This document shows, piece after piece, positions 21,401-46,819 of a stretch of DNA of 64,000 nucleotides (positions within the stretch are counted from its first letter, which is position 1; the number at the start of each line of letters is the position of its first letter). Source of the stretch: Gautieria morchelliformis (Eukaryota > Basidiomycota > Agaricomycetes > Gomphales > Gomphaceae); NCBI GenBank assembly GCA_015179125.1, contig WHVA01000316.1, forward strand, positions 62,001 to 126,000, given 5' to 3'. The notes beneath the pieces were generated by a model, which ran no database searches, had not been told where the DNA came from, and was given only the letters and a program-made list of their open reading frames with translations. The translations under genes were made by a program, and so were the position numbers.

Positions 21401-21902
21401 TGGTGATGCATGGGAAGCTTCATGGTGGGGCGGTTTTGCAAAACATTACTTACACCCTGCCACCAGCTACTCCCGAGGAGGCTCTTGCAGACCTGCTAAA
21501 TGCAGCGATCCCAGGAGTCAACCACCAGTGCCATCTGAACACCGTTGAATATGTGGACTCAAAAGGAGTGTTTAAAAAGGAACATGAATATATTGGATCA
21601 GCTATCAGATAATTGACAATGTGGCAGTAGTGTTCTTGGTTTTCTACAGTCCTAGAGATTTGGAATGTTATCTCAAAATGCACATTATCATTCGCCAGTG
21701 TATGCTTATGGAAAGTGATGTTGTGATTTCTATTAGATTAATCAGAATGAATGAGGTTCTGATTGCTCAGGGAGTTTGGGCTGCCTTGTACGCAATATGC
21801 TCAGGCTGACTAATCAGGGTAGTTGGATCCCTGCTGACAAATCAGGTTGGTGGTGGACCGGTGAGAGAATGACTAAGCAGGGTAGCTGCGGGTCTGATGC
21901 CC
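21401..21902. other. Unassigned; frame continuing after the BTB gene
   Basis: An open frame (21265-21612) continues from the BTB end in another phase with no clear family; the rest up to the Gypsy-A LTR shows nothing. A GGGTAG-T/C-TG-containing small duplication (21816-21890) is present. Confidence 0.3.
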
Positions 21903-22462
21903 TGTAAGAACCCGGCCTTTGGCCAGTTACTTACCGGTATAACCTTTCTTCTGAGCCTGAGCCTTGTGATACTCGTGCCCGAGTACTTATAATGCTTATC
22001 CTGCGCCTGAGACCAAGCTAAAGCTAGAGCTCATATCCGACCTTGATCCCATGCCCGTATCCCCTTAGTTACTGATTCCGCTCCATCACGCATCATTCGT
22101 ATATTACCTCACCCTGACCTTGCCCCCCCCCCCCCCCGACCTCTCCTAATATGCTTGCCCCTGACTTGTACCCTAGCTCATATATAAACCCCCTTGTATG
22201 CATTCCTACTGCTCAGTTGGAAAATCAACTATCGTATACTTTGATCCTTAGTTAGTTTCTAAGCCTCGCCTCTTAAGCCAAACCTCGCCTCTTATTCGTT
22301 TGCCTCCGAGGTTGGGACTCGTGCGTAGGGTCGGCACAACACATAAGCTGAAGACTAGTCCCTCTCCGACTTCCCTATCAAAGCCTCGCCCCGTAACCTT
22401 GGACCTTGCCTCGGGTTCCGCTCCCGAGCTCGGTCAACCTTATGAAGGATCCTATCGTAACA
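21903..22462 (+). repeat. Gypsy-A old copy 5' LTR
   Basis: TGTAAGAACCCGG...CTATCGTAACA. A TATATAAA box near 22180 lies about 30 bases before the motif aligned with the start of R. A C-run (about 22123-22137) is present in both LTRs. Directly after it, 22465-22475 reads ATTTTCAGACT, the likely primer-binding site. Confidence 0.85.
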
Positions 22463-22506
22463 GTATTTTCAGACTGCTTTCACCCTACATATCCCTTTGC
22501 TTCACT

Positions 22507-23346
22507 ATGTCCATGATAACTCGTTCCCATACCCTTCGGGGTATCTCAGAACAACGACGTTTCTCGGAAGCCCCCGACGATTCACCACCGTCCCCGGGGA
22601 TACCCCTCACAGACCCCGCCGAGCCTAGTAACAAAGGCAAAGGTAGGGCTAACCCTGGTGACCCTTCAGGTGATCCAGGTGATGGCTCTGGAGGTTCCGA
22701 CAACGATCAGGACCTCGGTGACCTCGAGGACAATGAGCTGATGCGTCGAGTGTTCATCAAGCTCGCGAAACCTCGTGAGTCCGAAGCGCGGGCCAAGGTC
22801 AAGGAACCGGATAGTTATGATGGTACTGACCAGGCCAAGCTTCACACCTTCTTCCTCCAATGCATACTCAACTTCCAAGATCGCCCCTCAGCCTTCAAAA
22901 CTGGGGCCTCGAAGGTACAGTATGCTATTTCTTACCTGTCCGGCTCAGCTCTACAGTACTTTGAACCGGCGATCCTTGGCGAAGTCCAACCCGAGCCAGA
23001 TTGGCTCAAGGACTGGAACAGCTTCAAGGCCAAACTTGAGCTCAACTTTGGCCCCTACGACAACACTGCCCAAGCCGAGATCGACCTTGAGAAGATTGTT
23101 ATGAAGGAGCACCACAAGGCGACGTGATTCTTTATCGACTTCGCCTGAGCTTTGACTCGGACTCAGTGGAACGATGCGGCCCTCTGACACTTCGCCTACA
23201 AAGGCTTGGCCAAACGAATCAAGGACGACTTACTTCACTTTCTTCGATTCCGCAGCCTCGCCAAGCTTAGGAACTTCGTGCTGGAATGCGACAGCCGTTA
23301 CTGGGAGTGTAAGGAATATGATGCTATGATCAATGGTCGCAGCTCC
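22507..23346 (+). pseudogene. Gypsy-A gag, first part (fossil)
   Basis: Encodes the capsid-type Retrotrans_gag region: acidic start (M-S-M-I-T-R-S...), D-S-Y-D-G-T-D-Q-A-K-L, Y-L-S-G-S-A-L-Q-Y-F-E-P and the helices ending near D-S-R-Y-W-E. The second part, with the C-L-L-C-G-T-K-G-H-I-V-K-D-C zinc knuckle, resumes after the foreign block at 27373-27689. A few breaks. Confidence 0.8.
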
Positions 23347-24760
23347 ACACGCCTGCTTCACATGAATCTTCATCTCATTCACATCACTCACATGCCTCTT
23401 CACACTATTCGCAGGCTCTTCACAGTCCTCACCATTCAGTACACAGCAACCACACTCTAGCCGATTCCCGACAAGGTCTTCCTTGCCAGGCGCCTTTAGC
23501 GGATCAGGGACATCACGCTGACCCTGCACTCGGACAACACCTTGGCTATGCTTTCAGTGGCATGCCCTACTACGATCTGAATGCTGCACTGTTCGGGGGC
23601 ACCCCACTCTTCACAGGACAACCTCACCCCTTCATGGGTCAACCTCCCCCTCAAAAACCTCCAGCACAGATTCCTGCCCTACCCGGTGGGCCTGCGCCTC
23701 CTCTATTCATGGGACAACCTCACCCCTTTGTCGGACAATCTCCCCTGCATCAACCTTTAGCACAGATTCCTGCCCTACCTGGTGGGCCTGTGCCTCCTCC
23801 TCCACCACCTTTTGGGCCACCCTTGCCCCATGCTGGAGTACCTCTGATTGGGCCTCCCCAACCTCCTGGCCCACTCCACCTCTGTCAGGGGACCACCCGT
23901 TCTCCCCCTTATTTCCCTTCCTTGCATCTCTTCCTCACATCTCTTTCATTGCATCCTTCCTGTATTCCTCCTTCTTTTGTGCATCACCACCAGTGGTGTG
24001 ACTTGCTTATGTCATTCTGTAGCAGCTATATAGTTTGTCGCCGAGGTAAGGAGATCCTCACTCTGTTCTCTTTGGAGCTCCTCTACCTCAGGTGCCACTC
24101 TAGGGAGTAGAGCACCTGGTAGAGTCGCCCTTACAACCTCCTGGTGGAGGGCCTTGGCTGCAACCAGGATTCCCCTGGAACCCTTATTATCCTTTTCCAT
24201 TTGTCTACCCTCAAGCCGCCCCTCACGGTGATTCCCATGCTGTGAAACCTGACAAATTCACAGGAAAGGAACCTTGCCTTCTCTGAACATTCATCCCTAG
24301 TTGTGTTATGGTCTTCAACAACAAGCCCCGAAAGTTCCAGCAGGAGCGACAGTGAGTCTCCTATGCAGCATCCTCAGCGACATTGCCTTGATCTGGTGGC
24401 AACCCTTTCTCATTCAGGTCCCAGAACCCCCCATTTGGAATGACTGGCTCACCTTTGTTGACGAGCTTAATTGTCTTTTCGGTCAGGCCGACATCATACA
24501 GGTTTCCGAGCAAGCAATTCGCAAGCTCAAGATGCACGACACCCATCGTGTCAATCGCCACATGACCGCATTTGCTGAGCTGTCCTCTTACATCAAGTGG
24601 AGTGATGCTGCCCTTTACGACACTTTCTATAATAGCCTTGCCGAGCGTATCAAAGACCACATGCTCTCTTACAAATGTCCTGAAAGCCTCGACGATCTCA
24701 AGTGTCAGGCTCTTCACATTGACAATCACTACTGGGAATGCCAAGGCGAAAAGCAGATTA
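23347..24760 (+). mobile_element. Foreign Gypsy-type gag fragment inside Gypsy-A gag
   Basis: Begins with a His/Ser-rich then proline-rich open frame (23349-24110; repeated F-M-G-Q-P and Q-I-P-A-L-P-G-G-P motifs) and continues with a different Retrotrans_gag domain (K-P-D-K-F-T-G-K-E-P at about 24245 and I-W-W-Q-P-F-L...L-F-G-Q-A-D to 24750). It is unlike Gypsy-A gag. Broken, a few breaks, 3' end cut at the junction with the WD40 piece near 24760. Confidence 0.6.
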
Positions 24761-24762
24761 CA

Positions 24763-25500
24763 CCTTGTCACATCAGTGGCCTTCTCCCACAATGGAAACC
24801 GCATCATCTCCGGATCTGAAGACAAGACAATCTGTGTGTGGAATGCAGGCATGGGGGAGTGTTAGCAACTCGGGGCTATGGCAGGGAAGGTTCGGTAGAG
24901 TTCTTAGAAAGCTAGAATCAAATACACTCTCTCAGTGAATTTATTGTCACTATTATATTAATACAATACCTAGAATCAAATACACTACATGATTTTCAGT
25001 CAACATGCTATGTAAATATAAAGAATACTACTCGCCTCTCTCAGTGAATTTATTGTCACTGAGAGAGGAGCACTATCCTGTCTCAGAAGGCATATACGTG
25101 CACCCGGCCCTTTAGCGCCCAAGGGCTCGCGCGTCGAAGTCATTTAAAACTCCGCTGGGTGCAGCCGCCTGTGAAAATAGGAATAACAGAATGAAATGGA
25201 GAGATAAGGAGTGACTGGAAAATTTCGAAAATAATCAGAGAAATAGATGCATGGTACAAGAACAATGTGAGAAAGAATTGGAACACCATACAGTAAATCG
25301 AACATATTATGCTTGATTTGGGTGCAGGAGCATAAATGCACCCAACAGGGAGCTCATTTCAGCACCATTCAAAGGCCACACCGACTGGGTCAACTTGGTG
25401 GTGTTCTTGCATGACAACAAGCATATCGTCTCTGGATCTTGTGACCAGACGATCTGTGTGTGGAATGAAGATGCCGGGGAGCTCATTTCAGCACCATTCG
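24763..25500 (+). pseudogene. WD40-repeat gene fragment, split by a solo LTR
   Basis: Encodes H-L-V-T-S-V-A-F-S-H-N-G-N-R-I-I-S-G-S-E-D-K-T-I-C-V-W-N before 24860, then after the LTR a second repeat (G-H-T-D-W-V-N-L-V...S-G-S-C-D-Q-T-I-C-V-W-N) and the start of a third ending near 25500. This pattern belongs to the large WD40/NACHT-type proteins of mushrooms. Only about two and a half blades are present, fused to a gag fragment; no start, no end. A transduplicated host gene piece. Confidence 0.72.
24860..25347 (-). mobile_element. Copia-A-type solo LTR inside the WD40 fragment
   Basis: 488 bp, TGTTAGCAACTCGG...AAATGCACCCAACA, flanked by GGGAG at 24855-24859 and 25348-25352. Shares the hairpin (25035-25068; 13-bp stem, 8-base loop) and the right 300 bases with the Copia-A LTRs; the left 60 bases differ. 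Non-coding. Confidence 0.82.
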
Positions 25501-27372
25501 CAGGTCACACACCTAGTCAGCAGCTGTTACCTTGATTTAACATGACACAATCTGCTAATATCCTTTCCACAGGTAGAGGGCCTGGGTTTTGAGATGACTC
25601 ACCGCTAGACAATGGCTGGTTACTCAGCTCACCCTCAGAACTTTTCTTCTGGGTTCCACCCTGGTCTCAGGTATGTTTGTGGTGGCCAGAGAATACCGCT
25701 GTTATTGCAAAGTGGTCCACAAAGCTTGATCTCAGCAGGTTTGAGCATGGGACCTTGTGGACACAATGCAGAGGCACTGCATGAGTTTCCCAAAGCAAAC
25801 ACTCATTGACACATGGATATTGCATCCCCTGCTATCATAGTGATTTGACTTGCCATATTGTACTCGCAGTAACCCTCTGATAGTCTGTCTTGGACACAGC
25901 CTGTCCTGCAGCACATGTACTGTGTAAGCTACCAATTCACACAAGGTCATCATAAATGGGTGACAGGGTCTGGTATGAAAAGCACAATCTATGCTCTCCT
26001 CTGACCTATATTAGTTGCATGGTGCTCGCAATGTGATCCATGAGTATGTGCATCTGCCTGTGAAGTGAATTCTAACCTACCATAATGAGATGGTAAGTGA
26101 GAGGTCTGACTTACAGGCTAGCAGAAGGTGTGAAGGTCCCTAAGCCCAAAGGTACGGGCGGCCGTGATTCCAGTAGACATGAACACCTTGGGCTCGACAC
26201 TGGTGAGGAGGACAATAAACAAATGTACAAAGAAATCCTGGTAAGTTCTCATGTTTTCTTATATCTACTTTCGTTAATTCATACAGCGTTCGGTCCGTGA
26301 CTGGTCCTCTCAAATCCTGAATACATATGAGCCAATCCGAGAGCAAGACAACCGCAAGGTCTCACTTGTTGTATAGCATGTAAGTCTATTACAACTCTTT
26401 GATGCCACACAATATATACTCATTTTATCTACAGGTCCTTTAGGAATGCCCAGAGCTAAATCATTTTGAATGCATATGGCCGATCAAAGCACTGATCCAA
26501 CAGTTCCTCAAAAATAGCTCAGAGCTCAAACGTCCGTCTGCAAGGTGGCGAGAGGAACGATTGTCCCCCCTGCAATGTGAGGAGCCTCAAGCCCTCTCTG
26601 TTTCCAATACTAGTAAGAGTGCAGCTCCAGTGTCCTCGAGTAAGTTCACCACAAGCAAGTCGGCTTTTGCGAAAAAAAAAAAATCCTTCCAAAGTTTCTT
26701 CAGCAAGTGCCAGTAAGTCTATGACCAAGTCTACGTTGACTAGAAAGTTGGGTTCTGTGAATGATGGGACTCCCTTGCACAGGGTTTGACGATGGGTGCT
26801 GGGAAGTCCTCTGAGCCAGTTGGCTCCAAATCCAAGGTGCATTTATCATTGTATATTGTAGTTCTACACCTAATCAGTGAACAACGTGATGTGCTCACGC
26901 AAGGTTTCAACAACGGGTGCCAGGAAGCCCGGTGCAAATTTTTGTTTGGTAGGCAATCATGATGACCAAGCCACCAGCTCAATGAAAAGGAAAACACCAG
27001 AGGACAGCAAACTGTCTGTATAAGACGCTGGACGATGCGCCAGCTGTAAGTACATTCACCTATTCCACCACCCAGCCACCTAACAACTTACACTTGCTTC
27101 TAGCCCATGCATTCCAAAAGGGTAAGTGAACCATTTATTGTATATATCAGTGTTAACCTCCTCCAGCTACAGGCTGCCTCGAAGGCCGGTGTGACAAATA
27201 AATAAGCGCCCAGGAAAACAGCTCCCAAGAAAGCCGACCCTGAGCCCAGGAAGTCCAAGCGCCAGGTTCGTGCACCTGCAAGACCTGATGAAGCGCCAGG
27301 TTCGTGCTCCTGCAAGACCTGATGCCAACTGTCAATGAAGCCTAGATAAGAAAGAAACCCTTATATATATCA
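25501..27372 (+). other. Rest of the foreign block: exon-like pieces of unknown origin
   Basis: No complete gene. At 26120-26380 two exon-like pieces (V-K-V-P-K-P-K-G... and, after a GTAAGT...TACAG intron at about 26240-26285, R-S-V-R-D-W-S-S-Q-I) look like a host-type gene. At 26480-26600 A-L-I-Q-Q-F-L-K-N-S-S and a serine/lysine-rich tail follow. Lysine/proline-rich text at 27165-27330 includes a 34-bp direct repeat (GCGCCAGGTTCGTGC start, 27267 and 27301). These resemble scattered exons of Agaricomycete hypothetical proteins; no function assigned. Confidence 0.35.
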
Positions 27373-27699
27373 ACCAGTCTTCCAGCGGTTCCAATAACAA
27401 CAAGAACCGCAACAAGACCAACAACAACGGCAAGGGTTCCAACAACAACTCTTCGAACAACAAAAGCCAGCCCAACATATCGAGCAAGCTTGGGAAGGAC
27501 GGCAAACTACTTCCCGAGGAACGCCAATGTTGGGTCGACCAGGGCCTTTGTCTGCTTTGCGGCACCAAAGGCCACATTGTCAAGGACTGCCCGAAGAACA
27601 AGTCTACCAACGGTAGCGGCTCTAAAGGTCGGGCAGTGAAGACCCCTAACGAGGGGACTTCGGCCTCCATTTCGGAGGTGAAAAAATAGGTAGCAACCT

Positions 27700-30600
27700 C
27701 GGAACCACACGATCCGAGGATTGCGGTAACCTCACCCGTGTGCTCAGACTCAGTGCCGCTTCTCATTCATTGTCCAATGATTCGCTTAATGTAGATCTAA
27801 CCTTGCCTTCGCTTCCCGACGTCTCTTTTGTTGCATGAGTTGACTGCAGGTCTTCCAATTGTTTTATTGAATCCAGATTTGTCCAGAAGTACTCTATGCC
27901 TGCTTATCCTGTCTCTCCTATACCCTTGAAACTATTTGATGGTAGTACTAACACTACAATTACCCAAGCTCTAGACCTCTGTATCTGCTTTCCGGCCGGC
28001 GAACAACAATGGGTTACCTTCTACGTAACCTCGCTCGACTCGAGTTGCTCGGTGGTACTTGGCCACAACTGGCTCACCCGCTACAATCTGTTGATTGACT
28101 GGGTATTGGGGAGCATTACTTTCAAGACCATCGATTTGACTACGACTCCAGCGACCACAGCGATTTCAGCCCGCTCAGCTTCGGCTACGACTTCGACTTC
28201 ACCTATGGCACCTTCGCCCCCACCTTCGACCTCGCCTCAGAACTCGCCTCTGAAGTTGCTAGCACTGCTCGTTTCCCTAATCAATGCACCCGCTTTCATG
28301 CACGCATCCAGATTAGAAGGATCCAAAGTGTTTCAACTCAATCTGGCTTCACCTGAGCTCCTCGCCCGAGGGGAAACATCAGGAGAAAGCTCTCCCGAGC
28401 TTTCTGGGAACGTTAAGAAACATGTTCCCGAAGTATATCACAAATTTGCAGATGTGTTCAGCAAAGCACGTGCTGACACTCTAGCTCCTCACTGACCCCA
28501 CGATATCAAGATCAACCTTGAAGAAGGGACCTTGCCGCCTATCGGTCCCATCTACTCTCTCTCAGCTTCCGAACTCAAAGCACTTCGCGAGTTTATCGAC
28601 GAGCACTTGAACATCGGTTTCATCCGACCTCCACGCTCACCTCATGGTGCACTGGTATTGTTTGTTTGCAAAAAAGATGGCTCACTTCGGTTGTGTGTCG
28701 ACTTCCGAGGTTTAAACAAGGTCTCGAAAAAAGATCGGTATCCATTGCCATTGATTGCTGACTTACTTGATGCTCCAAAGAATGCTCGCATCTATATGAA
28801 GATTGACCTTCATCACGCTTACCACCTTGTATGGGTGGCTGAGGGTGACGAATGGAAAACCGCCTTCAGGACTCGCTATGGGTCGTTTGAATGGTTGGTT
28901 ATGCCATTTGGTCTTACTAATGGCCCCGCTGCTTTCCAGAGATTAATGAACGACCTCCAAACATGTTGAACATGTCAAGGAAGTCCTGCGACGACTGCAA
29001 CTCAACAACCTCTTCGCTAAAGAAGACAAATGCGAGTTTCATCAGGACTCGGTTGAATTCCTTGGCTACATACTCTCTCCCGAGGGCCTCACTATGGCGG
29101 ACGACAAGGTCAAGGTCATTCAAGACTGGCCTGAACCTCGCAAAGTTCGCAACATCCAGTCCTTCCTCGGTTTCGCCAATTTCTACCGACGTTTCATTCA
29201 CAACTACTCGAACATCACCATTCCTCTCACCCAACTTACCCACATGGGTACCCCTTGGAACTTTTCCAAGGATTGTCGACTAGCCTTCAACCTGTTGAAA
29301 AAGGCTTTCACTACTGCTCCTATCCTTACCCACTGGATTCCTGACCTTCCACTAATCGTAGAGACTGATGCTTCAGATTATGCTTTAGCGGCAATCTTAT
29401 CGTTGCGAACCTCGGAAGGCGAACTTTATACCGTCGCTTTCCACCCCCGCACATTCACCTCTACCGAACTCAACTATGATGTTCACGACAAGGAGCTACT
29501 GGCTATCTTTGAAGCCTTTCAACGCTGGCGACACTACCTCGAGGGTTCTGGCGACCCTGTCGACGTTATCACCGATCACAAGAACCTCGAATACTTTTCA
29601 ACAACGAAGCTCTTGACCTGTCGACAAGCTCGGTGGTCAGAATAACTTTCCCAGTTCAACCTTGCCATCCGTTTCTGACCTGGTCACCTTGGAACGAAGC
29701 CTGACTCTCTCACTAGACGATGGGACGTCTACCTTAAAGAGGGGAATAGCGACTATGCCACCATAAACCCACAGAACCTACGGCCAGTGTTTACTCAACA
29801 CCAGCTGGCATTGTCCCTTAGAGCTACTAACCTCGCCCCCGTTGTCCTCCGAGCTGCTTCGCTGCTTGATACCGAGCAGATCCGAGCTGACATACTAGCG
29901 AACCTCCCCTCGGACCCCATAGTCAAGTTGCACCTCGGCTTGGTTTCTGACCCGAGGTGGACCACAGACCCTGAGGGTTTCCTCAAGCTTGACGACCGAA
30001 CCTATGTTCCAGCGGCCCAAGACCTTCGACTTCGCATCCTGCAATACAAACACGACCACATTCTTTCGGGAGATTTTGGGGTCAATAAGACCTTGGAGTT
30101 GATCCGACGAGACTACACTTGGCCAGGGATTAGATGCTTTTTCAAGGAGTATTGCAAGACTTGCACCACTTGTATGCGAAGCAAGCCGCAACGTCACAAG
30201 CCCTATGGTCTCCTCAAACAACTCCCCGTTCCCGAGAAGCCTTGGAATTCCATCTCTATGGATTTCATTGAGCAGCTCCCACCTTCATCCGAGTTCACCT
30301 CCATACTAGTGATTGTTGACTGCTTCACTAAGCAGGTTATCTTCATCCCAACCACAGACAAGATAACCTTGCAAGAGCTCGCTCACCTCTTCGTCCTTCA
30401 TGTCTTTTCCAAGCATGGAGTCCCCTCACACGTCACCTCGGACAGGGGTTCCGAGTTCATCTTGCACTTCTGGCGTTCTCTAGGGAAAGCCTTGGACATG
30501 CGGTTGCATTTCACCTCGGGATATCATCCCGAGGGTGACAGACAGACTGAGCATGCTAACCAGACACTGGAACAGTACCTCAGGATTTACTGCAACTATC

Positions 30601-31340
30601 AGCAGTCCAACTGGGCTTCGCTCCTTCCCCTAGCCGAGTTCACTTACAACAATGCGCCTAGCGCAACCACTGGTATCTCCCCATTCTTTGCTAACAAGGG
30701 TTACCACCCGAACCTCGCGGTTCGCCCCGAGCGGGACCTCCCCCCGGCATGAGCTCGAGACTTCGTGGTTGACCTGGATGAGGTTCACCAAGAACTTCCC
30801 CGCACCATCCTCGAGGCTCAGGAGACCTACCAAGCCTCGGCCGATGTTCGTCGCAAGCCCCCCCCTGATTTCCAAGTAGGATCCCTCGCCTTTGTAAAGG
30901 CGCAGTACTTCAGAACAACTCGGCCTACTAAGAAGCTCACCGAGAAGTTTTTGGGTCCTTTTGAGATCATTTCCTGAGCAGGTACTCACTCCTTCACCCT
31001 TCAACTTCCAGAACACATGCATTCAGTCCATCCAGTATTCCACGTATCCATGCTCGAACCAGCCTCGCCCAACACCATCCCAAACCGAGTTCAGCCGCCT
31101 CCGCCCCCAGTCGTTATCGACGGCGAGCCTGAGTTCGAAGTCTCCGAAATCCTCGACTCGAAGATCGATAATAGACAAAGGAGCTGCAAGCTGCTCTATC
31201 TTGTTAGGTGGACTGGTTACGAAGGTACCGACGAAGAAACCTTGTGGATCAGAGCTTCCGAGCTTGATCATGCCTCGGAGCTGGTCACTGACTTCCACCA
31301 GTCTTATCCGGGCAAGCCGGGACCGTTGACTGCTCTATGA
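27700..31340 (+). pseudogene. Gypsy-A old copy pol (fossil)
   Basis: Protease-like D-C-R-S-S-N-C region near 27840; reverse transcriptase around 28530-29100; RNase H (V-E-T-D-A-S-D-Y-A-L) near 29365; integrase zinc finger (about 30060-30180) and core (about 30300-30700); chromodomain (V-S-E-I-L-D-S-K ... Y-L-V-R-W-T-G-Y) at 31138-31260. Same order as the young copy. Several breaks. Confidence 0.85.
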
Positions 31341-31442
31341 TCATCCCCTTGTTTAACCCACATGACCTCCAGTAGTTAGATAACAAAAACAATCCTCGCA
31401 ATAAGAAATAACACCAAGAAATTCCTTTATTCACTTAGTTAG

Positions 31443-32586
31443 TTACTCTAACATCCTCATATCTTCCCCCTTGCTCCCCTCACTATCCTCGCCTGACTCC
31501 TCCTCATTACTACTGCTACTTCGCTCCACCAGACCCCCATGTCCCCCATAATCCACCAAATCTCTCGCCCCCTGCATCCGCTTCAAGTAATTCTGCCTCC
31601 TCCTTATCCTCATGAACTCCACATCCGCCCTGTTCATCCTATCATTCGCAGCCCTAAACTCCCCCAACAACTCGCACACCCTTTCCCCAACCTCGCCAAC
31701 CTTCTGTCCCACATCCCTTATCACTGCTATCAATTCCCTCATCTCCGCACTTCGCTCCGACCTTTTTGTCTTCTTGTCCTTCTTCGCCCTCCGACCTTCC
31801 CCCACCTTGGCTTCCTTCCCCTCACTCTGCCTCGCTTCCCCGACCTCTCTCCCCTCACTCTGCCTCGCTCCCCCAGTCCCCTTACCCTTCGCCTCGCTCA
31901 ACCTCGCTTCCATCCGCTCCACCCTCGTCTCAAGGTTCCGCTCGACCCAGTCACTTGAGTCGTCGTCATCCTCAACCTCGTCCCGAACCTTGGCCTCTTT
32001 CCTCGGCCTTGGTCCATCCTCGGCGTCCTCGCTCCTCGCCCGCTTCCTGCCCGCCGCGCTCGCCTGACCTTTCCCTGGGTTCGCCTTGCGGCGACGACCA
32101 AGGGCTATACTGCAGCCCAATGATCGTGTCTTGCACCATACGCAAGCACCCTGGTCGGCCATGCCGAAGTTGAGGCTGATGGTCCGGAGGCAGGTATAGT
32201 CGCGCTCTTCGCAGTGCGTGCACCTCGCCTCAGTCTTCATTCCGAGGAGCCACTCGTGAGGTCCTCCATCGGCGAGCTTGTACCCGTACAGGGTCAAGTC
32301 AGACGGATGATATGCGAATAGCATCCATTTGTACTACTCAAATCAGCATGAATTAATGACGAGACCACTACGTACTCACGTTCTTGCCTTTCGGCCCCTC
32401 CTGCCACGGTTCCCGCATGTCGATAGCCCCCGCATCATCAATGGGCCATTGGGCTACCTTGGGTCGAACATCGTGCCTAACCTTGCCTGAGGAACCATCC
32501 TCCTCAGACAGCAGGGTCTGGTCGAAGGCTTTGCTCGAGCTGTGTTCATCGACGGCAGAATTGAAAAGGGCTTGAGGGTGCACCAT
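31443..32586 (-). CDS. Antisense accessory gene of Gypsy-A (old copy), looks whole
   Basis: Runs against gag-pol, between pol and the 3' LTR. Exon 1 32586-32380 (69 codons), intron 32334-32379 (46 nt, GTGAGT...GAGTAG, GCTGAT branch-like site), exon 2 32333-31443. About 365 residues: M-V-H-P-Q-A-L-F-N-S start; C-T-H-C-x6-C and C-V-W-C-x5-C clusters 27 residues apart; basic patches (K-R-A-R-S, R-P-R-K); heptad-like N-L-E-T-R-V-E-R-M-E-A-R-L and E-M-R-E-L-I...V-G-E-R-V-C-E-L-L coiled-coil stretches; basic R-R-R-Q-N-Y-L-K-R-M; serine/acidic tail. GATAAAAGG lies at 32623-32631, about 40 bases before the ATG. Product unknown; a nuclear zinc-binding or DNA-binding protein is my inference. The homologue at 37924-39049 is similar over its whole length. 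Confidence 0.7.
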
Positions 32587-32758
32587 ATTTGTTGGCACTT
32601 GGGTTTGCTGCCTCCTACCCTGCCTTTTATCTAACCTCGGCTACAATTTAAGCTTCGCCTTTCCGGCTACTTAACATCGGGCCGGGATCTAGATTTGAGG
32701 ATAGGCGAACCTTGTTCATATTATGGCCTCGAGGGTCTTGGCCATAAGGAGGGGATAC

Positions 32759-33319
32759 TGTAAGAACCCAGCCTTTGGCCGGTTACTTACTGGTATAACC
32801 TTTCTTCCGAGCCTGAGCCTTGTGATACTCGTGCCCGAGTACTTATAATGCTTATCCTGCGCCCGAGACCAAGCTAAAGCTAGAGCTCATATCCGACCTT
32901 GATCCCATGCCCGTATCCCCTTAGTTACTGATTCTGCTCCATCACGCATCATTCGTATATTACCTCGCCCTGACCTCCCCCCCCCCCCCCCCCTGACCTC
33001 TCCTAATATGCTTGCCCCTGACTTGTACCCTCGCTCATATATAAACCCCCTTGTATGCACTCCTACTGCTCAGTCTGAAAATCAACTATCGTATACTTTG
33101 ATCCTTAGTTAGTTTCTAAGCCTTGCCTCTTAAGCCAAACCTCGCCTCTTATTCGTTTGCCTCCGAAGTTGGGACTCGTGCGTAGGGTCGGCGCAGCACA
33201 TAAGCTGAAGACTAGTCCCTCTCTGACTTCCCTATCAAAGCCTCACCCCGTAACCTTGGACCTTGCCTCAGGTTCCGCTCCCGAGCTCGGTCAACCTTAC
33301 AAAGGATTGTATCGTAACA
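32759..33319 (+). repeat. Gypsy-A old copy 3' LTR
   Basis: TGTAAGAACCCAG...GTATCGTAACA, 561 bp. TATATAAA near 33040; AGTCTGAAAAT at 33072-33082 is the presumed start of R. About 25 differences from the 5' LTR, mostly transitions. Confidence 0.85.
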
Positions 33320-33820
33320 GTTGGCCCTGGTGAATAGGTGCGAGTTGCGCAGCTTGTCCCACAGTACATGATGTCTGTTAAAATCTCCTAACCACACCAT
33401 TCCTTCTATCTCCTGTTCATATGTAGTCCCTTATGCTGCTTTCTCCTGTATGTATTTTCGTACGGCTCTTATGCTGTCAGATTGTGTCCAGTTTATGTAT
33501 ATATTGAAAATTAGGACATCGCCCGTGTTTGTTTTGATTTTCACTGCTATGACGTCTGGTGAATCTATCTCCACTGCCCCCCACACGCTTGTAGCTATCT
33601 TCTTGTTTATCAATATCATTGATCTTGCTTGTGCCCCTTTGTCTTGGAAATGGGTCTTTGGGTATACTGAATCCCAGCTGTGTGTGGCTCTAGAATTTCC
33701 CAAGAAGTCAACATATGGTTCCTGGATTGCAAGAATGTCATATCGTTCAGGTGAGCACTTAGCTAGCATCTCTGCCGTTGCTGCTACAAAGATAGACACC
33801 ACCCATCCAAAACATCACAG
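33320..33820 (-). mobile_element. LINE ORF2 endonuclease fragment
   Basis: Minus-strand text with the endonuclease/exonuclease/phosphatase pattern: Y-D-I-L-A-I-Q-E-P-Y (near 33750), V-L-I-F-N-I-Y-I-N (near 33500) and W-L-G-D-F-N-R-H-H-x-L-W-D (near 33390). It is cut at 33320 by the Gypsy-A LTR, and the rest of the LINE (reverse transcriptase) is not found on the other side of Gypsy-A. A premature stop lies between the two frames near 33430. It belongs to a different part of a LINE than the 1186-2032 copy, so the two cannot be compared. The following bases to 34029 are CA-rich with no gene. Confidence 0.7.
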
Positions 33821-37190: not shown

Positions 37191-37751
37191 TGTTACGTTA
37201 CGATCCGTCGTAAGGTTGACCGAGGTCGGGGACGAAACCCGAGTCAAGGTCCGAGGTTACGGGGCGAGGTTTGGATGGGGAAGTCGGAGAGGGACTTGGC
37301 TTCAGCTTATGTGCTGCGCCGACCCTACGCACGAGTCCCAACTTCGGAGGTAAACGAATAAGAGGCGAGGTTCTAGCTTAAGAGGCGAGGCGTAGAAACT
37401 AGCTAGGGGTCGAAGGGACACGATAGTTGATTTTCAGACTAAGGAGTAGGAATGCATACAAGGGGGTTATATACGGACGAGGTGCAAGTCAGGGGCGAAC
37501 AGATTAGTGGAGGTCAGGGCGGGGTCAGGAGACCGAGGTCAGGGCGAGGTAATATACGAATGATGCGTGATGGAGCGGAATCAGTAACTAAGGGGATACG
37601 GGCATGGGATCAAGGTCGGATCTGAGTTCAAGCTCGGGATCGGGCTCGGGCACGGACAAGTATCATATGTACTCGGGCATGAATATCACAAGGCTCGGGC
37701 TCGGAAGAAGGTTCTACCGGTAAGTAGCCGGCCAAAGGCCGGGTCCTTACA
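37191..37751 (-). repeat. Gypsy-A young copy 3' LTR
   Basis: On the coding strand TGTAAGGACCCGG...ATCGTAACA. Contains TATATAAC and the R-start motif AGTCTGAAAAT (complement at 37430-37440). Confidence 0.9.
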
Positions 37752-37878
37752 GTATTCCCCCCTCATGGCCGAGACCCTCGAGGCCGTAATGTGAACAGGG
37801 TTCGCCTATCCTTGAATCTAGATCTCGGTCCGATGTTAAGTAGCCGGAAAGGCGAAGCTTAAATCGTAGCCGAGGTTG

Positions 37879-37888
37879 GATAAAAGGG
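37879..37888 (+). promoter_or_regulatory. TATA-like box of the antisense gene
   Basis: GATAAAAGGG, 36-45 bases before the antisense ATG at 37924. The same box (GATAAAAGG) stands at the same distance in the old copy (32623-32631, minus), although nearby sequence differs, which supports a promoter role. Inference only; no transcript data. Confidence 0.45.
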
Positions 37889-37923
37889 TGGGTAGGAGGC
37901 AGCGAACCCCATTGCCAACGAAT

Positions 37924-39049
37924 ATGGTGCGCCCTCAAGCCCTCTTCAACTCAGCCGTCGACGAGGACAGCACAAACAACGTGTTCGACCAGACATTGCT
38001 GTCTGCGGCGAACGGAGCCTCGGGCGAGGTTGTGCCCGAGGATCGACCCGAGGTTGGCACATTGCCAATTGATGAGATGGGGGCCATTGACATGCGGCAG
38101 CCGTGGCAGGAAGGGCCGAATGGAAAAAAGGTGAGTACCGTTGTTGGCTGGTCATGGACGCTGCTGATTTGTACAGTATAAGCGCATGTTGTTTTCATAC
38201 CACCCGACTGACTTGTCCCTATACGGGTACAAGCTCGCCGACGGGGGACCCCGCGAGTGGCAGCTCGCGACCAAGGCCGAGGCGAGGTGCGCGCGCTGCG
38301 AAGAGCGCGACTATACGTGCCTTCGGGCCGTTAGTCTCGACTTCGGCCTCGCCGACCAGGGTGCTTGCGTGTGGTGCAGGACCCGTTCCTTGGGCTGTAG
38401 CATCGCCCAAGGTCGCCGCAGCAAGGCGACCCCAGGGAAAGGTCAGGTGGGTGTAGCGAGCAAGAAGCGAGCGAGGAGCGAGGAGGCCGAGGGTGAACCG
38501 AGGCCGAGGAAAGGGGCCAAGGTTCGAGACGAGGTGGATGATGATGACAACGACTCGAGCGATTGGGTCGAGCGTAACCTTGAGACGAGGGTGGAGAGGA
38601 TGGAAGCGAGGCTGAGCGAGGGGAAAGGAAAGGAAACAGAAGGGGCGAGGCAGAATGAGGGAAAGGAAACCGAGGTGGAGGAAACCGAGGTGGAAGGTCG
38701 GAGGGCGAAGAAGGACAAGAGGACGAAAAGATCGGAGCGGAGTGCGGAGATGAGGGAGTTGATAGCGGCTGTGAGGGATGTGGGGCAGAAAGTTGGTGAG
38801 GTTGGGGAGAGGGTGTGCGAGTTGCTGGGGGAGTTTAGGGCTGCGAATGACAGGATGAACAGGGCGGATGTGGAGTTCATGAGGATAAGGAGGAGGCGGA
38901 ATTATTTGAAGCGGATGCAGGGGGCGAGAGACTTGGCGGATTATGGGGGACATGGGGGTCTGGTGGAGCGAAGTAGTAGCAGTAATGAGGAGGAGTCAGG
39001 CGAGGGGAGCGAGGAGAGCGAAGGAGAGGATATGAGGATGGTGGAATAA
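37924..39049 (+). CDS. Antisense accessory gene of Gypsy-A (young copy), looks whole
   Basis: Exon 1 37924-38130, intron 38131-38176 (46 nt, GTGAGT...TACAG, GCTGAT branch-like site), exon 2 38177-39049; about 359 residues. Order of parts: conserved M-V-R-P-Q-A-L-F-N-S-A-V-D-E start, F-D-Q-T-L-L, W-Q-E-G-P-N-G-K; then L-Y-G-Y-K-L-A-D-G-G-P; C-A-R-C-x6-C and C-V-W-C-x5-C; basic K-K-R-A-R-S; two coiled-coil-like helices; basic R-R-R-R-N-Y-L-K-R-M; acidic serine tail. Opposite to gag-pol. The paired cysteine groups recall short zinc-binding motifs in Agaricomycete hypothetical proteins, but spacing is not the classic Zn2Cys6. Function unknown; a role in regulating the element or host silencing is a guess. 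Confidence 0.72.
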
Positions 39050-39151
39050 CTAGTAAATGGAATAATAGACTTTTCTTGGATTTTATCGATTTTGTTTTGA
39101 AGGGTTTTGTCATCTAACTACCGGGGTCATGGGGATTAACAGGGAAAACGA

Positions 39152-42100
39152 TCATAGAGCAGTCAAGGGGCCGGGCTTGCCCGGGTAAGAGTCATGGAAA
39201 TCCGTGACCAGCTCCGAGGCATGATCAAGCTCGGAAGCGAGGATCCACGAGGTTTCTTCGTCGGTACCTTCGTAACCAGTCCACCTAACAAGGTAGAGTA
39301 ATTTGCAGCTCTTGCGTCTATTATTGATCTTCGAGTCGAGGATTTCGGAAACCTCGAACTCGGGTTCGCCGTCGATAACGACTGGGGGCGGAGGCGGCTG
39401 AACTCGGTTTGGTATGGTGTTGGGCGAGGCTGGTTCGAGCATAGATACGTGGAAGACCGGATGGACTGAATGCATGTGTTCTGGAAGTCGAAGGGTGAAG
39501 GAGTGAGTACCCGCTCGGGAAATGATTTCAAAAGGACCCAAGAACTTCTCGGCGAGCTTCTTGGTAGGCCGAGTTGTTCGAAAGTACTGTGCCTTCACAA
39601 AGGCGAGGGATCCTACTTGGAAATCAGGAGCGGGCTTGCGACGAACATCGGCCGAGGCTTGGTAAGTTTTCTGAGCCTCGAGGATGGCGTGGCGAAGTTC
39701 TTGGTGAAGCTCGTCCAGGTCAACCACGAAGTCTCGGGCTCGTGCCGAGGCGAGGTCGCGCTCGGGGTGAACTGCGAGGTTCGGATGGTAGCCTTTATTG
39801 GCAAAGAATGGGGAGACGCCGGTGGTTGCGCTAGGCGCGTTGTTGTAGGCGAACTCGGCTAGGGGAAGGAGCGAAGCCCAATTGGACTGCTGATAGTTGC
39901 AATAGATCCTGAGGTACTGTTCCAAAGTTTGGTTAGCACGCTCGGTCTGACCGTCACCCTCGGGATGATATCCCGAGGTGAAATGCAACCGCATGTCCAA
40001 AGCTTTCCCTAGGGAACGCCAGAAGTGCGAAACAAACTCGGAACCCCTGTCCGAGGTGACGTGCGAGGGGACTCCATGCTTTGAAAAGACATGAAGAACG
40101 AAGAGGTGAGCGAGCTCTTGCGAGGTTATCTTGTCTGTGGTTGGAATGAAGATAACCTGCTTAGTGAAGCGGTCAACAATCACTAGGATGGAGGTGAACT
40201 TGGATGAAGGGGGAGTTGCTCAATGAAATCCATAGATATGGAATTCCAAGGTTTCTCGGGAACAGGAAGTTGTTTGAGGAGACCATAGGGTTTGTGACGT
40301 TGCGGCTTGCTTCGCATACAAGTGGTACACGTCTTGCAATACTCCTTGACAAAGGATCTAATCCCTGGCCAAGTATAGTCTCGTCGGATCAGCTCCAAGG
40401 TTTTGTTGACCCCGAAGTGTCCCGAGAGAATGTGATCGTGCTTGTATTGCAGGATGCGAAGTCGAAGGTCTTGGGCTGCTGGAACATAGGTTCGGTTGTC
40501 AAGTTTGAGAAATCCCTCGGGGTCTGTGGTCCACCTCGGGTCATTAACCAAGCCGAGGTGCGACTTGGCTATGGGGTCCGAGGGGAGGTTTGCCAGTATG
40601 TCAGCTCGGATCTGCTCGGTATCAAGCAGTGAAGCGGCTCGGAGTACGACGGGAGCGAGGTTAGTAGCTCTAAGGGACGATGCCAGCTGGTGCTGAGTAA
40701 ACACTGGCCGTAGGTTCTGCGGAGTACGACGGGAGCGAGGTTAGTAGCTCTAAGGGACGATGCCAGCTGGTGCTGAGTAAACACTGGCCGTAGGTTCTGC
40801 GGGTTTATGGTGGCATAGTCGCTATTCCCCTCTTTAAGGTAGACGTCCCATCGTCTAGTGAGAGAGTCAGGCTTCGTTCCGAGGCGACCTGGTCGGAAGC
40901 GTATGACGAGGTTGAACTGGGAAAGGTATTCCGACCACCGAGCTTGTCGACGGGTCAAGAGCTTCGTAGTTGAAAAGTATTCGAGGTTCTTGTGATCGGT
41001 GATAACGTCAACTGGTTCGCCTGAGCCCTCTAGGTAGTGTCGCCAGCGTTGAAAGGCTTCAAAAATGGCGAGGAGCTCCTTGTCGTGAACATCGTAGTTG
41101 AGCTCGGTAGAGGTGAATGTGCGGGAGTGGAAAGCGACGGGATGAAGTTCGCCTTCCGAGGTTCGTAGTGATAAGATTGCCGCTAAGGCATAATCTGATG
41201 CATCAGTCTCTACGATCAGTGGAAGGTCAGGAATCCAGTGAGTAAGGATAGGAGCGGTAGTGAACGCCCTCTTCAACAGGTTGAAAGCCCGTCGACAATC
41301 CTCGGAAAAATTCCAAGGGGTACCCTTGCGGGTAAGTCGGGTGAGAGGAATGGTGATGTCGGAGTAGTTGTGAATGAAACGTCGGTAGAAGTTGGCGAAG
41401 CCGAGGAAGGATTGGATGTCGCGAACTTTGCGAGGTTCAGGCCAGTCTTGAATGACCTTTACCTTGTCATCCGCCATAGTGAGGCCCTCGGGAGAGAGTA
41501 TGTAGCCGAGGAATTCAACCGAGTCGCGATGGAACTCGCATTTGTCTTCTTTGGCGAAGAGGTTGTTGAGTCGTAGTCGTCGCAAGACTTCCTTGACATG
41601 TTCAACATGTTTGGAGGGGTCACTGGAGTAGATTAGAATGTCATCCAAGTATACCACCACACAAACGTCCAAAAGGTCGGCGAACACCTCGTTCATGAAT
41701 CTCTGGAAGGCAGCAGGGCCATTAGTGAGACCAAATGGCATAACCAACCATTCAAAAGACCCATAGCGAGTCCTGAAGGTGGTTTTCCATTCGTCACCCT
41801 CGGCCACCCGTACGAGGTGGTAAGCGTGACGAAGGTCAATTTTCGTATAGATGCGAGCATTCTTTGGAGCATCAAGTAAGTCAGCAATCAATGGCAATGG
41901 ATACCGATCTTTTTTTGAGATTTTGTTCAAACCTCGGAAGTCGACACACAACCGAAGTGAGCCATCTTTTTTGCGAACGAACAATACCGGTGCACCATGA
42001 GGCGAGCATGAAGGTCGGATGAAACCGATGTTTAAATGCTCGTCGATGAACTCGCGAAGTGCTTTGAGTTCGGAAGCTGAGAGAGAGTAGATGGGACCGA

Positions 42101-42890
42101 TAGGTGGCGAGGTCCCTTCTTCGAGGTTGATTTTGATATCGTGAGGTCGGTGGGGAGCTAGAGTGTCAGCGCGTGCTTTGCTGAACTCATCTGCAAATTC
42201 GTGATATACTTCGGGAACATGTTTCTTAACGTTCTCAGGAAGCTCGGAAGAGCTTCCTCCCGATGTTGCCCCTCTGGCGAGGAGCTCAGGTGAAGCCAAA
42301 TTGAGCTGAAACACTTCGGACCCTTCCAATCTAGATGCGCGCATGAAAGCGGGTGCATTGATTAGGGAAACGAGGGGTGCTTGCAACTTCGGAAGCGAGG
42401 TCGGAGGCGGGGGCGAAGATGCCGTAGGCGAGGTCGAAGTCGTAGCCGAAGCTGAGCGGGCTGACGTCGCCGGGGTCGCTGGAGTCGTTGTTAGGTCGAT
42501 GGTCTTGAAAGTAATACTGCCCAATACCCAGTCAATCGACGGATTGTAGCGGGTGAGCCAGTTGTGGCCAAGTACCATCGAGCAACTTGAGTCGAGCGAG
42601 GTTACGTAGAAGGTAACCCATTGTTGTTCGCCGGTCGGAAAGCAAATGCAGAGGTCTAGAGCTTGGGTAATGGTAGTGTTAGTACTACCGTCAAATAGTT
42701 TCAAGGGTATAGGAGTGACAGGATAAGCAGGCATGGAGTACTTCTGGACAAATCTGGATTCAATAAAACAGTCTGAGGACCCGCAGTCAACTAATGCAAC
42801 AAAAGCGACGTTGGGCAGCGAAGGCGAGGTTAGATCTACATTAAGGGAATCTTTGGACAATGAATGAGAAGCGGCGCTGAGTCTGAGCAC
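39152..42890 (-). pseudogene. Gypsy-A young copy pol (about two breaks)
   Basis: Protease-like V-D-C-G-S-S-D-C near 42790; reverse transcriptase with V-V-Y-L-D-D-I-L-I near 41650; RNase H V-E-T-D-A-S-D-Y near 41210; integrase H-H-C-C-type finger (about 40440-40310) and core with I-V-D-R-F-T-K and S-D-R-G-S-E-F (about 40180-39900); chromodomain at about 39380-39240 (F-E-V-S-E-I-L-D-S-K, Y-L-V-R-W-T-G-Y). The chromodomain marks it as a chromovirus, a group known to aim integration at modified chromatin. Confidence 0.88.
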
Positions 42891-42940
42891 ACGGGTGAGG
42901 TTACCGCAATCCTCGGATCGTGTGGTTCCGAGGTTGCTAC

Positions 42941-44173
42941 CTATTTTTTCACCTCCGTAATGGAGGCTGAAGTCCCCTCGTTAGGGGTCTTCGTTGCCCG
43001 ACCTTTAGAACCGCTACTATTGGTAGACTTGTTCTTCGGGCAGTCCTTGACGACGTGACCTTTGGTGCCGCAAAGCAGACAAAGTCCTTGGTCGACCCGA
43101 CGTTGGCGCTCCTCGGGAAGCAGTTTGCCATCCTTCCCGAGTTTGCTCGAAATGTCGGGCTGGCTCTTGTTGTTCGAAGAGTTGTTGTTGTTGGAACCCT
43201 TGCCGCTGTTGTTAGTCTTGTTGCGGTTCTTATTGTTATTGGAACCACTGGAAGACTGGTGGTTGTTAGTGGCATTGCTACTGGACTGATTAGTGGTGCG
43301 TGCAGGCTGGGAGCTACGACCATTGATCATGGCGTCGTATTCCTTTCGCTCCCAGTAACGGCTATCGCATTCCAGCGCGAAGTTCCTAAGCTCGGCGAGG
43401 CTGCGGAATCGAGGGAAGTGAAGTAAGTCGTCCTTGATCCGTTTGGCCAAGCCCTTGTAGGCAAAGTGTCGGAGGGCCGCGTCGTTCCACTGAGTCCGAG
43501 TCGAAGCTCGGGCGAAGTCGATAAAGAATCGCGCGGCCTTGTGGTGCTCTTTCATAACGATCTTCTCGAGGTCAATCTCGGCTTGGGCCGCGTTGTCGTA
43601 TGGGCCGAAGTTAAGCTCGAGCTCGGCCTTGAAGCTGTCCCAGTCCTCGAGCCAATCTGGCTCGGGTTGGACTTCGCCGAGGATCGCCGGCTCGAAATAT
43701 TGCAGAGCCGAGCCGGACAGGTAAGAAATAGCATACTGCACCTTTGAGGCCCCAGTCTTGAACGCGGTGGGGCGATCTCTGAAGTTGAGTACACATTGAA
43801 GGAAGAAGGTGCGAAGCTTGGCCTGGTCAGTACCGTCATAACTATCCGGTTCCTTGACCTTGGCTCGTGCTTCGGGTTCGCGAGGTTTCGCGAGTTTGAT
43901 GAACACTCGACGCATAAGCTCGTTGTCCTCGAGGTCACCGAGGTCCTCGGGCGGAAGGTTGGGGAGGTCCCGATCGTTGTCAGAACTTCTAGAGCCATCA
44001 CCTGGATCACCTGAAGGGTCACCGAGGTTAGCCCTACCTTTGCCTTTGTTACTAGGCTCGGCGGGGTCTGCGAGGGGTATCCCCGGGGACGGGGGTGAGT
44101 CATCGGGGGCTTCCGAGAAACGTCGCTGTTCTGAGATACCCCGAAGGGTGCGAGAACGAGTTATCATGGACAT
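42941..44173 (-). CDS. Gypsy-A young copy gag
   Basis: 410 codons in one frame. Acidic/proline start, then a Retrotrans_gag capsid region (D-S-Y-D-G-T-D-Q-A-K-L ... Y-L-S-G-S-A-L-Q-Y-F-E-P ... D-S-R-Y-W-E-R-K-E-Y), an Asn/Ser-rich linker and a C-x2-C-x4-H-x4-C zinc knuckle (C-L-L-C-G-T-K-G-H-V-V-K-D-C). Forms the particle shell and binds the RNA. A 50-nt gap separates it from the pol frame, as expected for a gag stop with a separate pol frame in this group; the expression mode is not evident. Confidence 0.88.
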   Translation of the reverse strand: MSMITRSRTLRGISEQRRFSEAPDDSPPSPGIPLADPAEPSNKGKGRANLGDPSGDPGDGSRSSDNDRDLPNLPPEDLGDLEDNELMRRVFIKLAKPREPEARAKVKEPDSYDGTDQAKLRTFFLQCVLNFRDRPTAFKTGASKVQYAISYLSGSALQYFEPAILGEVQPEPDWLEDWDSFKAELELNFGPYDNAAQAEIDLEKIVMKEHHKAARFFIDFARASTRTQWNDAALRHFAYKGLAKRIKDDLLHFPRFRSLAELRNFALECDSRYWERKEYDAMINGRSSQPARTTNQSSSNATNNHQSSSGSNNNKNRNKTNNSGKGSNNNNSSNNKSQPDISSKLGKDGKLLPEERQRRVDQGLCLLCGTKGHVVKDCPKNKSTNSSGSKGRATKTPNEGTSASITEVKK

Positions 44174-44203
44174 CGTGAAAAAAGGGATACGTAGGGTGTA
44201 AGC

Positions 44204-44214
44204 AGTCTGAAAAT
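44204..44214 (-). promoter_or_regulatory. Gypsy-A primer-binding site, self-priming type
   Basis: Two bases inside the 5' LTR the coding strand reads ATTTTCAGACT, the exact complement of AGTCTGAAAAT, which occurs in the LTR about 30 bases after the TATATAA box, where transcription should start. An 11-nt match between the mRNA 5' end and the primer site is the known arrangement of Tf1/sushi-type elements. The old copy has the same pair (22465-22475 and 33072-33082). Confidence 0.65.
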
Positions 44215-44216
44215 AC

Positions 44217-44778
44217 TGTTACGTTACGATCCGTCGTAAGGTTGACCGAGGTCGGGGACGAAACCCGAGTCAAGGTCCGAGGTTACGGGGCGAGGTTTGG
44301 ATGGGGAAGTCGGAGAGGGACTTGGCTTCAGCTTATGTGCTGCGCCGACCCTACGCACGAGTCCCAACTTCGGAGGTAAACGAATAAGAGGCGAGGTTCT
44401 AGCTTAAGAGGCGAGGCGTAGAAACTAGCTAGGGGTCGAAGGGACACGATAGTTGATTTTCAGACTAAGGAGTAGGAATGCATACAAGGGGGTTATATAC
44501 GGACGAGGTGCAAGTCAGGGGCGAACAGATTAGTGGAGGTCAGGGCGGGGTCAGGAGACCGAGGTCAGGGCGAGGTAATATACGAATGATGCGTGATGGA
44601 GCGGAATCAGTAACTAAGGGGATACGGGCATGGGATCAAGGTCGGATCTGAGTTCAAGCTCGGGATCGGGCTCGGGCACGGACAAGTATCATATGTACTC
44701 GGGCATGAATATCACAAGGCTCGGGCTCGGAAGAAGGTTCTACCGGTAAGTAGCCGGCCAAAGGCCGGGTCCTTACAG
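44217..44778 (-). repeat. Gypsy-A young copy 5' LTR
   Basis: Same sequence as 37191-37751 apart from one extra A near 44761. It supplies the promoter for the minus-strand gag-pol RNA. Confidence 0.9.
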
Positions 44779-46316: not shown

Positions 46317-46321
46317 AACCC
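46306..46321 (-). promoter_or_regulatory. Copia-A half-tRNA-iMet primer-binding site
   Basis: Directly after the LTR the coding strand reads GGGTTATGGGCCCCGG. This matches the anticodon-loop half of initiator tRNA-Met and the known primer site of Drosophila copia (GGTTATGGGCCC). The ATG within it is the gag start. Confidence 0.7.
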
Positions 46322-46819
46322 TGTAGAGGACAGGAATTATAGGCAGTAGGTATGGACTGCTTGCTCAAAAGAATAGACTAGAAATTAATTCACTCTCTCA
46401 GTGAATTTAGTTGTCACTGTAAGTATATTATACACTACCTAGAAATTAATTCACTACAGAGGATTTCTAGGTCAATAAATCGAAAGAACACTAGACTAAT
46501 TTACTTGCCTCTCTCAGTGAATTTAGTTGTCACTGAGAGAGGGGGAAATCTGTCTCACTGTGCATGTACTACTACCCGGCCCTTTAGCGCCCAAGAGCTC
46601 GCGCGTCGAAGTCATTTCAGACTCCGCTGGGTGCAGCCGCTTGTGAAAATAGAAATAACAAGATGAAATGGAGAGGTAAGGAGTGACTGGAAAATTTCGA
46701 AAATAATCAGAGAAATGGGTGCATGGTACAAGAACAATGTGAGAAGAGATTGAAACACCATACAGCAAATCGAATATATTATGCTTGATTTTGGTGCAGG
46801 AGCATAAATGCACCCAACA
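46322..46819 (-). repeat. Copia-A 5' LTR
   Basis: 498 bp. Has the complete hairpin (46508-46542) and, about 110 bases to the left, a half-copy with a weaker stem. Differs from the 3' LTR mainly in the 130 bases nearest 46819. Confidence 0.85.
46508..46542. other. Conserved LTR hairpin (13-bp stem)
   Basis: CCTCTCTCAGTGA, nine-base loop, TCACTGAGAGAGG. Present in every Copia-A-type LTR of the window: 8239-8273, 25035-25068, 34155-34189 and here. The variant LTR at 6299 has a hairpin with changed but still paired stem (6483-6512). Position within R/U5 is not known. Confidence 0.75.

Follow-up and report, generated by a model that had tools for sequence, protein, structure and literature searches.

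The antisense gene in the window

The window analysed here is a stretch of 64,000 nucleotides of the Gautieria morchelliformis genome (122 Mb in 1113 contigs), taken from contig WHVA01000316.1 (positions 62,001 to 126,000) of assembly GCA_015179125.1. It contains two copies, one young and one old, of a single Ty3/Gypsy retroelement family, designated family A. The long terminal repeats (LTRs) of both copies were mapped, and in both a two-exon gene lies between pol and the 3' LTR on the opposite strand. This antisense gene has a conserved structure, is coding and is under purifying selection that is specific to its reading frame. The young copy comprises the following features:

37191..44777 (-), young Gypsy-A element with gag and with pol containing integrase and chromodomain, located by look inside a Copia-like element
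37191..37751 (-), 3' LTR of the element, adjoining the promoter side of the antisense gene
37879..37887 (+), TATA-like box GATAAAAGG, in which ATAAAA starts 44 nt before the ATG
37924..38130 (+), antisense exon 1, 69 codons
38131..38176 (+), intron of spliceosomal type, 46 nt, GTGAGT..GCTGATTTG..TACAG
38177..39049 (+), antisense exon 2, 290 codons and a stop, encoding a Cys domain, a basic/acidic linker and a long C-terminal helix
38288..38398 (+), zinc-cluster-like stretch with six cysteines, exon-2 residues 38-74

The LTR matches of the young element are 100% identical across 564 bp, and the element is bordered by a 5-bp target-site duplication, GTCTC, at 37186-37190 and 44778-44782. Pfam matches above the cut-offs to RVT_1, RNase H, rve, SH3_Tf2-1 and Chromo identify it as a chromovirus; a gag match was found as well. 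The old copy is interrupted at 23356-27373 by about 4 kb of other sequence, and is arranged as follows:

about 21902..33320 (+), old Gypsy-A element, with the 5' LTR at about 21902-22463 and the 3' LTR at about 32754-33320
32631-32623 (-), GATAAAAGG box, in which ATAAAA starts 44 nt before the ATG, as in the young copy
32586-32380 (-), antisense exon 1
32379-32334 (-), intron, 46 nt
32333-31443 (-), antisense exon 2, open

The sequence-only reading of the window had described two exons, a 69-codon exon 1, a 46-nt intron and a box at an equal distance from both genes. All of these, coordinates included, are correct in both copies. It had also described a shared Cys spacing and introns that differ strongly, and this agrees with the present comparison: the exon-2 proteins share 83% identity and the same Cys spacing, and the two intron sequences have diverged strongly. 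For this pair dN is 0.10 and dS 0.57, giving a ratio of non-synonymous to synonymous change (dN/dS) of 0.18, which falls inside the range of 0.11-0.26 obtained for six pieces of gag-pol of the same two copies.

Conservation of the gene across the genome

When the genome was searched with the exon-2 protein, at least 149 matches at no fewer than 134 loci were obtained, with 75-100% identity; the number of loci is a lower bound because 134 of 571 candidates were scored. The frame, whose absence from other Gypsy-A copies the sequence-only reading had named as evidence against its view, is thus present family-wide. The copies examined came from 110 loci (L009-L118, both window copies included), and exon 1 was located in all of them except L091. 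The intron has the ends GT..AG in 100 of these 109 copies and the start GTGAGT in 98, and a branch-like GCTGAYT string lies within it in 103. It is 46 nt long in 75 copies, 47 in 20, 48 in 7 and 45 in 3; the four remaining introns, of 20, 27, 62 and 63 nt, belong to damaged or mis-joined copies, and no clean intron loss was found among the 109 rows. ATAAAA is positioned at -43 to -45 of the ATG in 100 copies. A single odd copy is ruled out by the number of loci and by the structure kept across the examined copies.

By our own open-gene criteria the gene is fully open in 62 of the 109 copies. The remaining 47 count against a maintained gene: 19 have an early stop in exon 2, 11 a stop in exon 1, and 9 lack the ATG, while 7 have an exon-1 match of the wrong length and 1 runs off the fetched end. 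The antisense frame of the old window copy is open, as the sequence-only reading had stated, but this is not evidence by itself because so many copies fail the criteria. Of 59 family-A-like reverse transcriptase matches, 31 have no antisense partner among the matches listed. The only one of these 31 that was inspected, the full-length copy C715, does contain the antisense gene, with a frame-shifted exon 2, and this gene lies outside the matches listed genome-wide.

Selection on the reading frame

The codon analysis was confined to open copies, 41 distinct ones being left of the 62 after near-duplicates at 1% were removed, and describes these and not the 47 broken copies. The mean pairwise difference at codon positions 1, 2 and 3 is 0.082, 0.078 and 0.193, respectively, compared to 0.283 inside the intron. 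Over the 100 nt that follow the stop it is 0.153, and across the 150 nt that precede the ATG it is just 0.072, a strong conservation of the promoter side. NG86 dN/dS is 0.19 over the 820 pairs of distinct open copies. This value and that of the window pair are far below 1, and bear out the suggestion of the sequence-only reading that this is a selected accessory gene. The MG codon model (kappa 1) gives an omega of 0.20, and fixing omega at 1 lowers the log-likelihood by 496. NG86 dN/dS drops from 0.36 for pairs with dS < 0.05 to 0.18 for pairs with dS > 0.5, which is the pattern expected if inserted copies are free to drift and selection acts on the lineage that replicates. The C-terminal helix (0.105) and the Cys domain (0.12) have the lowest dN/dS, followed by exon 1 (0.21), the tail (0.25) and the linker (0.26).

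In the true frame of exon 2 (frame 0) dN/dS is 0.166, whereas four of the five other frames give 1.1-1.5 with at least 3 stops each per copy; the fifth, reverse frame 1, gives 0.30 with 5.3 stops per copy. Selection tracks the reading frame, and for this reason both a chance open frame and a non-coding antisense RNA are rejected. An antisense transcript that restrains the gag-pol RNA, its open frame being incidental, would have some precedent in the antisense transcripts that a passage of PMC7264820 discusses as possible regulators of plant LTR elements. The difference between frame 0 and the four frames with ratios above 1 largely refutes this alternative, as does the retention of the splice sites though the intron diverges, and it is very improbable.

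Sister families with zinc-cluster genes

Two sister chromovirus families, families 2 and 3, carry antisense genes at the same site as family A, and these genes encode Zn2Cys6 zinc clusters, that of family 2 being a probable one. The copies described are:

L121 549-1823, opposite pol, family-2 antisense gene, a 424-codon frame with CX2CX6C-X10-CX2CX6C
L122 901-1831 and L123 433-961, opposite pol, family-3 antisense gene with CX2CX6C-X7-CX2CX6C

The gene is broken in L122, and L123 was assigned to family 3 by similarity. Just before the cluster, family 3 has a stretch that resembles an intron: it contains GTGAGT, CTGAC or TTGAC as the branch, and TTTAG. The genome contains at least 106 matches at 103 or more loci for family 2, and at least 150 matches for family 3. 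The positions of pol C-termini were compared with those of antisense matches within 3.5 kb, among the matches listed. In family A, 84 of 150 pol matches were paired and all 84 partners were downstream on the opposite strand; the same held for 60 of 60 pairs in family 2 (150 pol matches). In family 3, 26 of 42 pol matches had a downstream, opposite partner and one had an upstream partner (26 of 27 pairs).

The family-3 proteins reach the Zn_clus (PF00172) gathering score of 21 bits (22.0 in L123 and 21.0 in L122), and all 13 members match this domain at E <= 1. In comparisons with the PDB they gave weak matches to PUT3 and LAC9 (E 0.2-0.8) and to CBF3B and PUT3 (E 0.1-0.17). In family 2 the spacing fits a zinc cluster and all 11 members match Zn_clus at E <= 1 (best 4.1e-5), with scores for the L121 protein of 11.6-15.6 bits against the gathering score of 21. 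A single family-2 sequence found nothing in the PDB, and the profile found just two entries, LAC9 (E 0.79) and an unrelated toxin (E 1.1). Families 2 and 3 align with each other by hhalign at E 9e-8 and a probability of 94%. Short fragments of their genes have dN/dS of 0.125-0.15 (14, 7 and 5 copies with a readable cluster).

The pol C-terminus of family 3 is 68-72% identical to that of family A and 71% identical to two family-2-like matches, one of them C425; families A and 2, compared as DNA alone, are about 71-72% identical over 300-400 bases. The family-A antisense protein gives a marginal BLAST match to those of families 2 and 3. Because pol is about 70% identical but the antisense proteins are barely alike, the gene either diverges much faster than pol or was replaced.

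The gene may have been taken from the host, as the sequence-only reading had suggested. The sister families bear on one form of this, a recent capture in which the gene is carried as a passenger, with no function for the element. The zinc cluster belongs to a domain class of fungi and is common in them, and other Zn_clus matches exist in this genome. A passenger would hardly be expected at 134 or more loci down to 75% identity, with dN/dS near 0.2 and at a fixed site of the element, nor would comparable genes at that site in two sister families, and recent capture is extremely improbable.

In the family-2 copy at L120 (1895-2240), an internal deletion has apparently removed the zinc cluster of the antisense gene; no cluster was found among the open reading frames of this copy, and its pol, 1257 aa long, is open despite the apparent loss. 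In L123 the fragment of the family-3 antisense gene is followed by low-complexity tandem sequence, at about 960-1400.

The family-A protein

The family-A protein has 359 residues and consists of the part encoded by exon 1, the Cys domain, a linker that is first basic and then acidic, and a long helix. The Cys domain has the spacing CX2CX6C-X15-CX2CX6C. Among 28 aligned rows the six cysteines form CX2CX6C twice, three of them being invariant and three nearly so. A textbook zinc cluster has the pattern CX2CX6C-X(5-12)-CX2CX6-8C. Zn_clus is the commonest Pfam match of the family-A Cys domain (21 of 28 members, best E 0.024). By hhalign, family A aligns with family 3 at E 8.5e-4 and with family 2 at E 3e-3, with the six cysteines in register, and none of 200 column shuffles was as good in either case. 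Together with the pattern of the sequence, this suggests that family A encodes a zinc-cluster protein that has diverged. Like the fungal Zn2Cys6 factors (PF00172; PUT3 and LAC9 are examples), it has CX2CX6C twice, followed by basic residues and a predicted long helix; unlike them, it is borne by a retroelement, has a 15-residue loop and scores below the threshold.

Several observations weigh against this kinship. The Cys domain of the window protein scores 13.0 bits (E 0.11), below the gathering score of Zn_clus, and Zn_clus is absent when the whole exon-2 protein is scanned against Pfam at E <= 1. Endonuclease_7, which is unrelated, also scores weakly in 10 of the 28 Cys-domain members. The middle loop has 15 residues, more than the 5-12 of the textbook pattern, and the hhalign probabilities for family A are just 24% with family 3 and 10% with family 2. 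The family-A profile found no zinc cluster in the PDB, just an RNA polymerase subunit at E 1.3. In an AlphaFold model of exon 2, calculated from a two-row alignment, the Cys domain has a confidence score (pLDDT) of about 35-49, which makes it unusable, and strands are drawn instead of a cluster. The mean pLDDT of this model is 52.5; residues 172-256 are modelled as a helix with values of about 80-85 over its main part, and outside this helix the model is unreliable. Exon 1 has no Pfam match at E <= 1, the scan against NCBIfam gave no match, and a search of viral and prokaryote contigs found no relatives.

A zinc-binding basic protein could also be a helper of replication or integration, acting on RNA or cDNA or on integration targeting and not on transcription. 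The Cys-rich and basic regions, the selection similar to that on gag-pol and the chromodomain integrase of the same element are in keeping with such a role. The class that the sister-gene zinc clusters match is one of DNA-binding regulators, however, and a separate antisense promoter with a spliced mRNA would be an odd route to a particle component. A helper role is therefore improbable.

Promoter motif and proposed regulation

An 11-base motif, TAAGTARCCGG, marks the edge of the LTR and recurs ahead of the TATA-like box:

37721..37731 (+), TAAGTAGCCGG motif at the LTR edge (U3 end), young copy
37837..37847 (+), second TAAGTAGCCGG motif, in the upstream region of the antisense gene, young copy
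44747 (+), TAAGTAGCCGG motif in the 5' LTR, young copy
32789 and 32673 (-), TAAGTARCCGG at the LTR edge and in the antisense promoter, old copy

The motif is present in 69 of 81 rows. It occurs twice in just 44 of the 81, which counts against the regulator reading set out below. CGG triplets number 35-47 per kb upstream, a count made without a null on which no claim is based. Members of the zinc-cluster class bind short GC-rich sites.

It is probable, in our judgement, that the element encodes in this spliced antisense gene a zinc-cluster DNA-binding regulator of itself, comparable to HBZ of human T-cell leukaemia virus type 1 (HTLV-1) or to the antisense open reading frames (aORFs) of plant elements. 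The gene would be transcribed, in the direction opposite to gag-pol, from a putative promoter of its own next to the 3' LTR, and removal of the single 46-nt intron would yield the 359-residue protein. The conserved box and splice signals are the basis for predicting this transcription and splicing. The protein would pair via its C-terminal helix, enter the nucleus and bind DNA in the region of the LTR and the antisense promoter, and would thereby regulate transcription of the element. Because the LTR edge occurs in both LTRs, a protein that binds there would sit at the 5' LTR as well as at its own promoter. The intron would survive because splicing acts on the antisense mRNA and not on the genomic RNA that is reverse transcribed.

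The same anatomy, with a motif common to the LTR and the antisense promoter, would be expected of an anti-silencing factor, a protein that binds the DNA of the element and relieves host silencing by methylation or small RNAs instead of adjusting transcription directly. Arabidopsis VANDAL elements are reported to encode proteins with such a role, the VANC proteins. An arms race would fit the poor resemblance of the family-A antisense protein to those of families 2 and 3, given the similarity of the pol C-termini. By sequence such a factor is indistinguishable from a transcription regulator, and we regard it as an unlikely alternative, though one to be reckoned with.

The regulator reading can be extended to the group as a whole. 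The chances are about even that a clade of fungal chromoviruses possesses its own antisense zinc-cluster factors, fixed at the pol/3' LTR site, spliced in at least two of the three families and diverging faster than pol, so that each LTR has a family-specific regulator, in convergence with HTLV HBZ. It is of significance that a DNA-binding domain can be recognised in the sister genes, that these occupy a hundred or more loci each and that they are under strong selection; this makes the regulator hypothesis directly testable. An intron is retained inside an LTR element, which the antisense orientation allows.

Some Zn_clus matches of the genome (C31, C298 and C544) fall in these element genes. 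By extension, part of the multicopy 'Zn2Cys6 genes' in the annotations of fungal genomes may belong to elements, and counts of zinc-cluster factors in such genomes may be inflated.

Relation to known antisense genes

Antisense genes are known from plant LTR elements and from the fungal element Boty; the intron, the kinship to zinc clusters and the presence of several such families in one genome are different here. According to the passages on them in PMC7264820 and PMC11963269, the plant aORF-3R genes (gene23 of maize Grande and those of rice RIRE2 and of Silene Retand, the last with a TRP28 domain) resemble the family-A gene in being antisense, in lying between pol and the 3' LTR and in being conserved in many copies. 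The same passages describe a promoter of its own upstream of gene23, a nuclear Grande product and predicted DNA binding by TRP28. Unlike family A these are plant elements, Retand is not a chromovirus, the word intron is absent from both texts, and no zinc cluster is mentioned in those passages. The functions of the antisense genes of LTR elements are described as yet unknown in PMC7264820.

The sequence-only reading knew of no precedent for a spliced Cys-cluster protein in fungal chromoviruses. That needs the caveat that an additional antisense gene, brtn, was already published for the Boty-like element of Botrytis cinerea, whose gag-pol has a CHROMO domain (Zhao et al. 2011, cited in PMC7264820 and PMC8365987). 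To judge from these citing passages, brtn and the family-A gene are alike in being antisense genes of fungal chromodomain elements; a Monilinia transcript similar to BRTN is also reported. The main text of a survey of fungal LTR elements (PMC3248453) mentions neither antisense, zinc nor intron, and the zinc and antisense terms looked for are absent from a co-option screen (PMC10799480). No spliced antisense zinc-cluster gene of a fungal LTR element was found in the literature as represented by titles and the openings of abstracts, with subscription papers mostly outside this coverage.

HBZ of HTLV-1 and the APH proteins of HTLV-2, HTLV-3 and HTLV-4 likewise come from antisense genes that are spliced and sit at a retroelement's 3' end, splicing in family A being read from the sequence. 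The passages of PMC10186651 devoted to them describe HBZ as a nuclear bZIP protein that lowers viral expression, APH-2 as nuclear, and APH-3 and APH-4 as suppressors of transcription from the 5' LTR. These differ from family A in belonging to human retroviruses, in having the promoter in the 3' LTR and in containing a bZIP domain, or no bZIP, in place of a zinc cluster; no homology is claimed.

Other elements of the window

The Copia-like element, recognised by look at 34480-37197 and 44790-46364 (-), is split by the insertion of the young Gypsy-A element; its 905-aa part is still open. Another element, by look Gypsy-like, at 47612-51895 (+), has its gag-pol in several frames and a chromodomain-like end. 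The LTR of the old Gypsy-A element contains a run of 17 C at 32977-32993.
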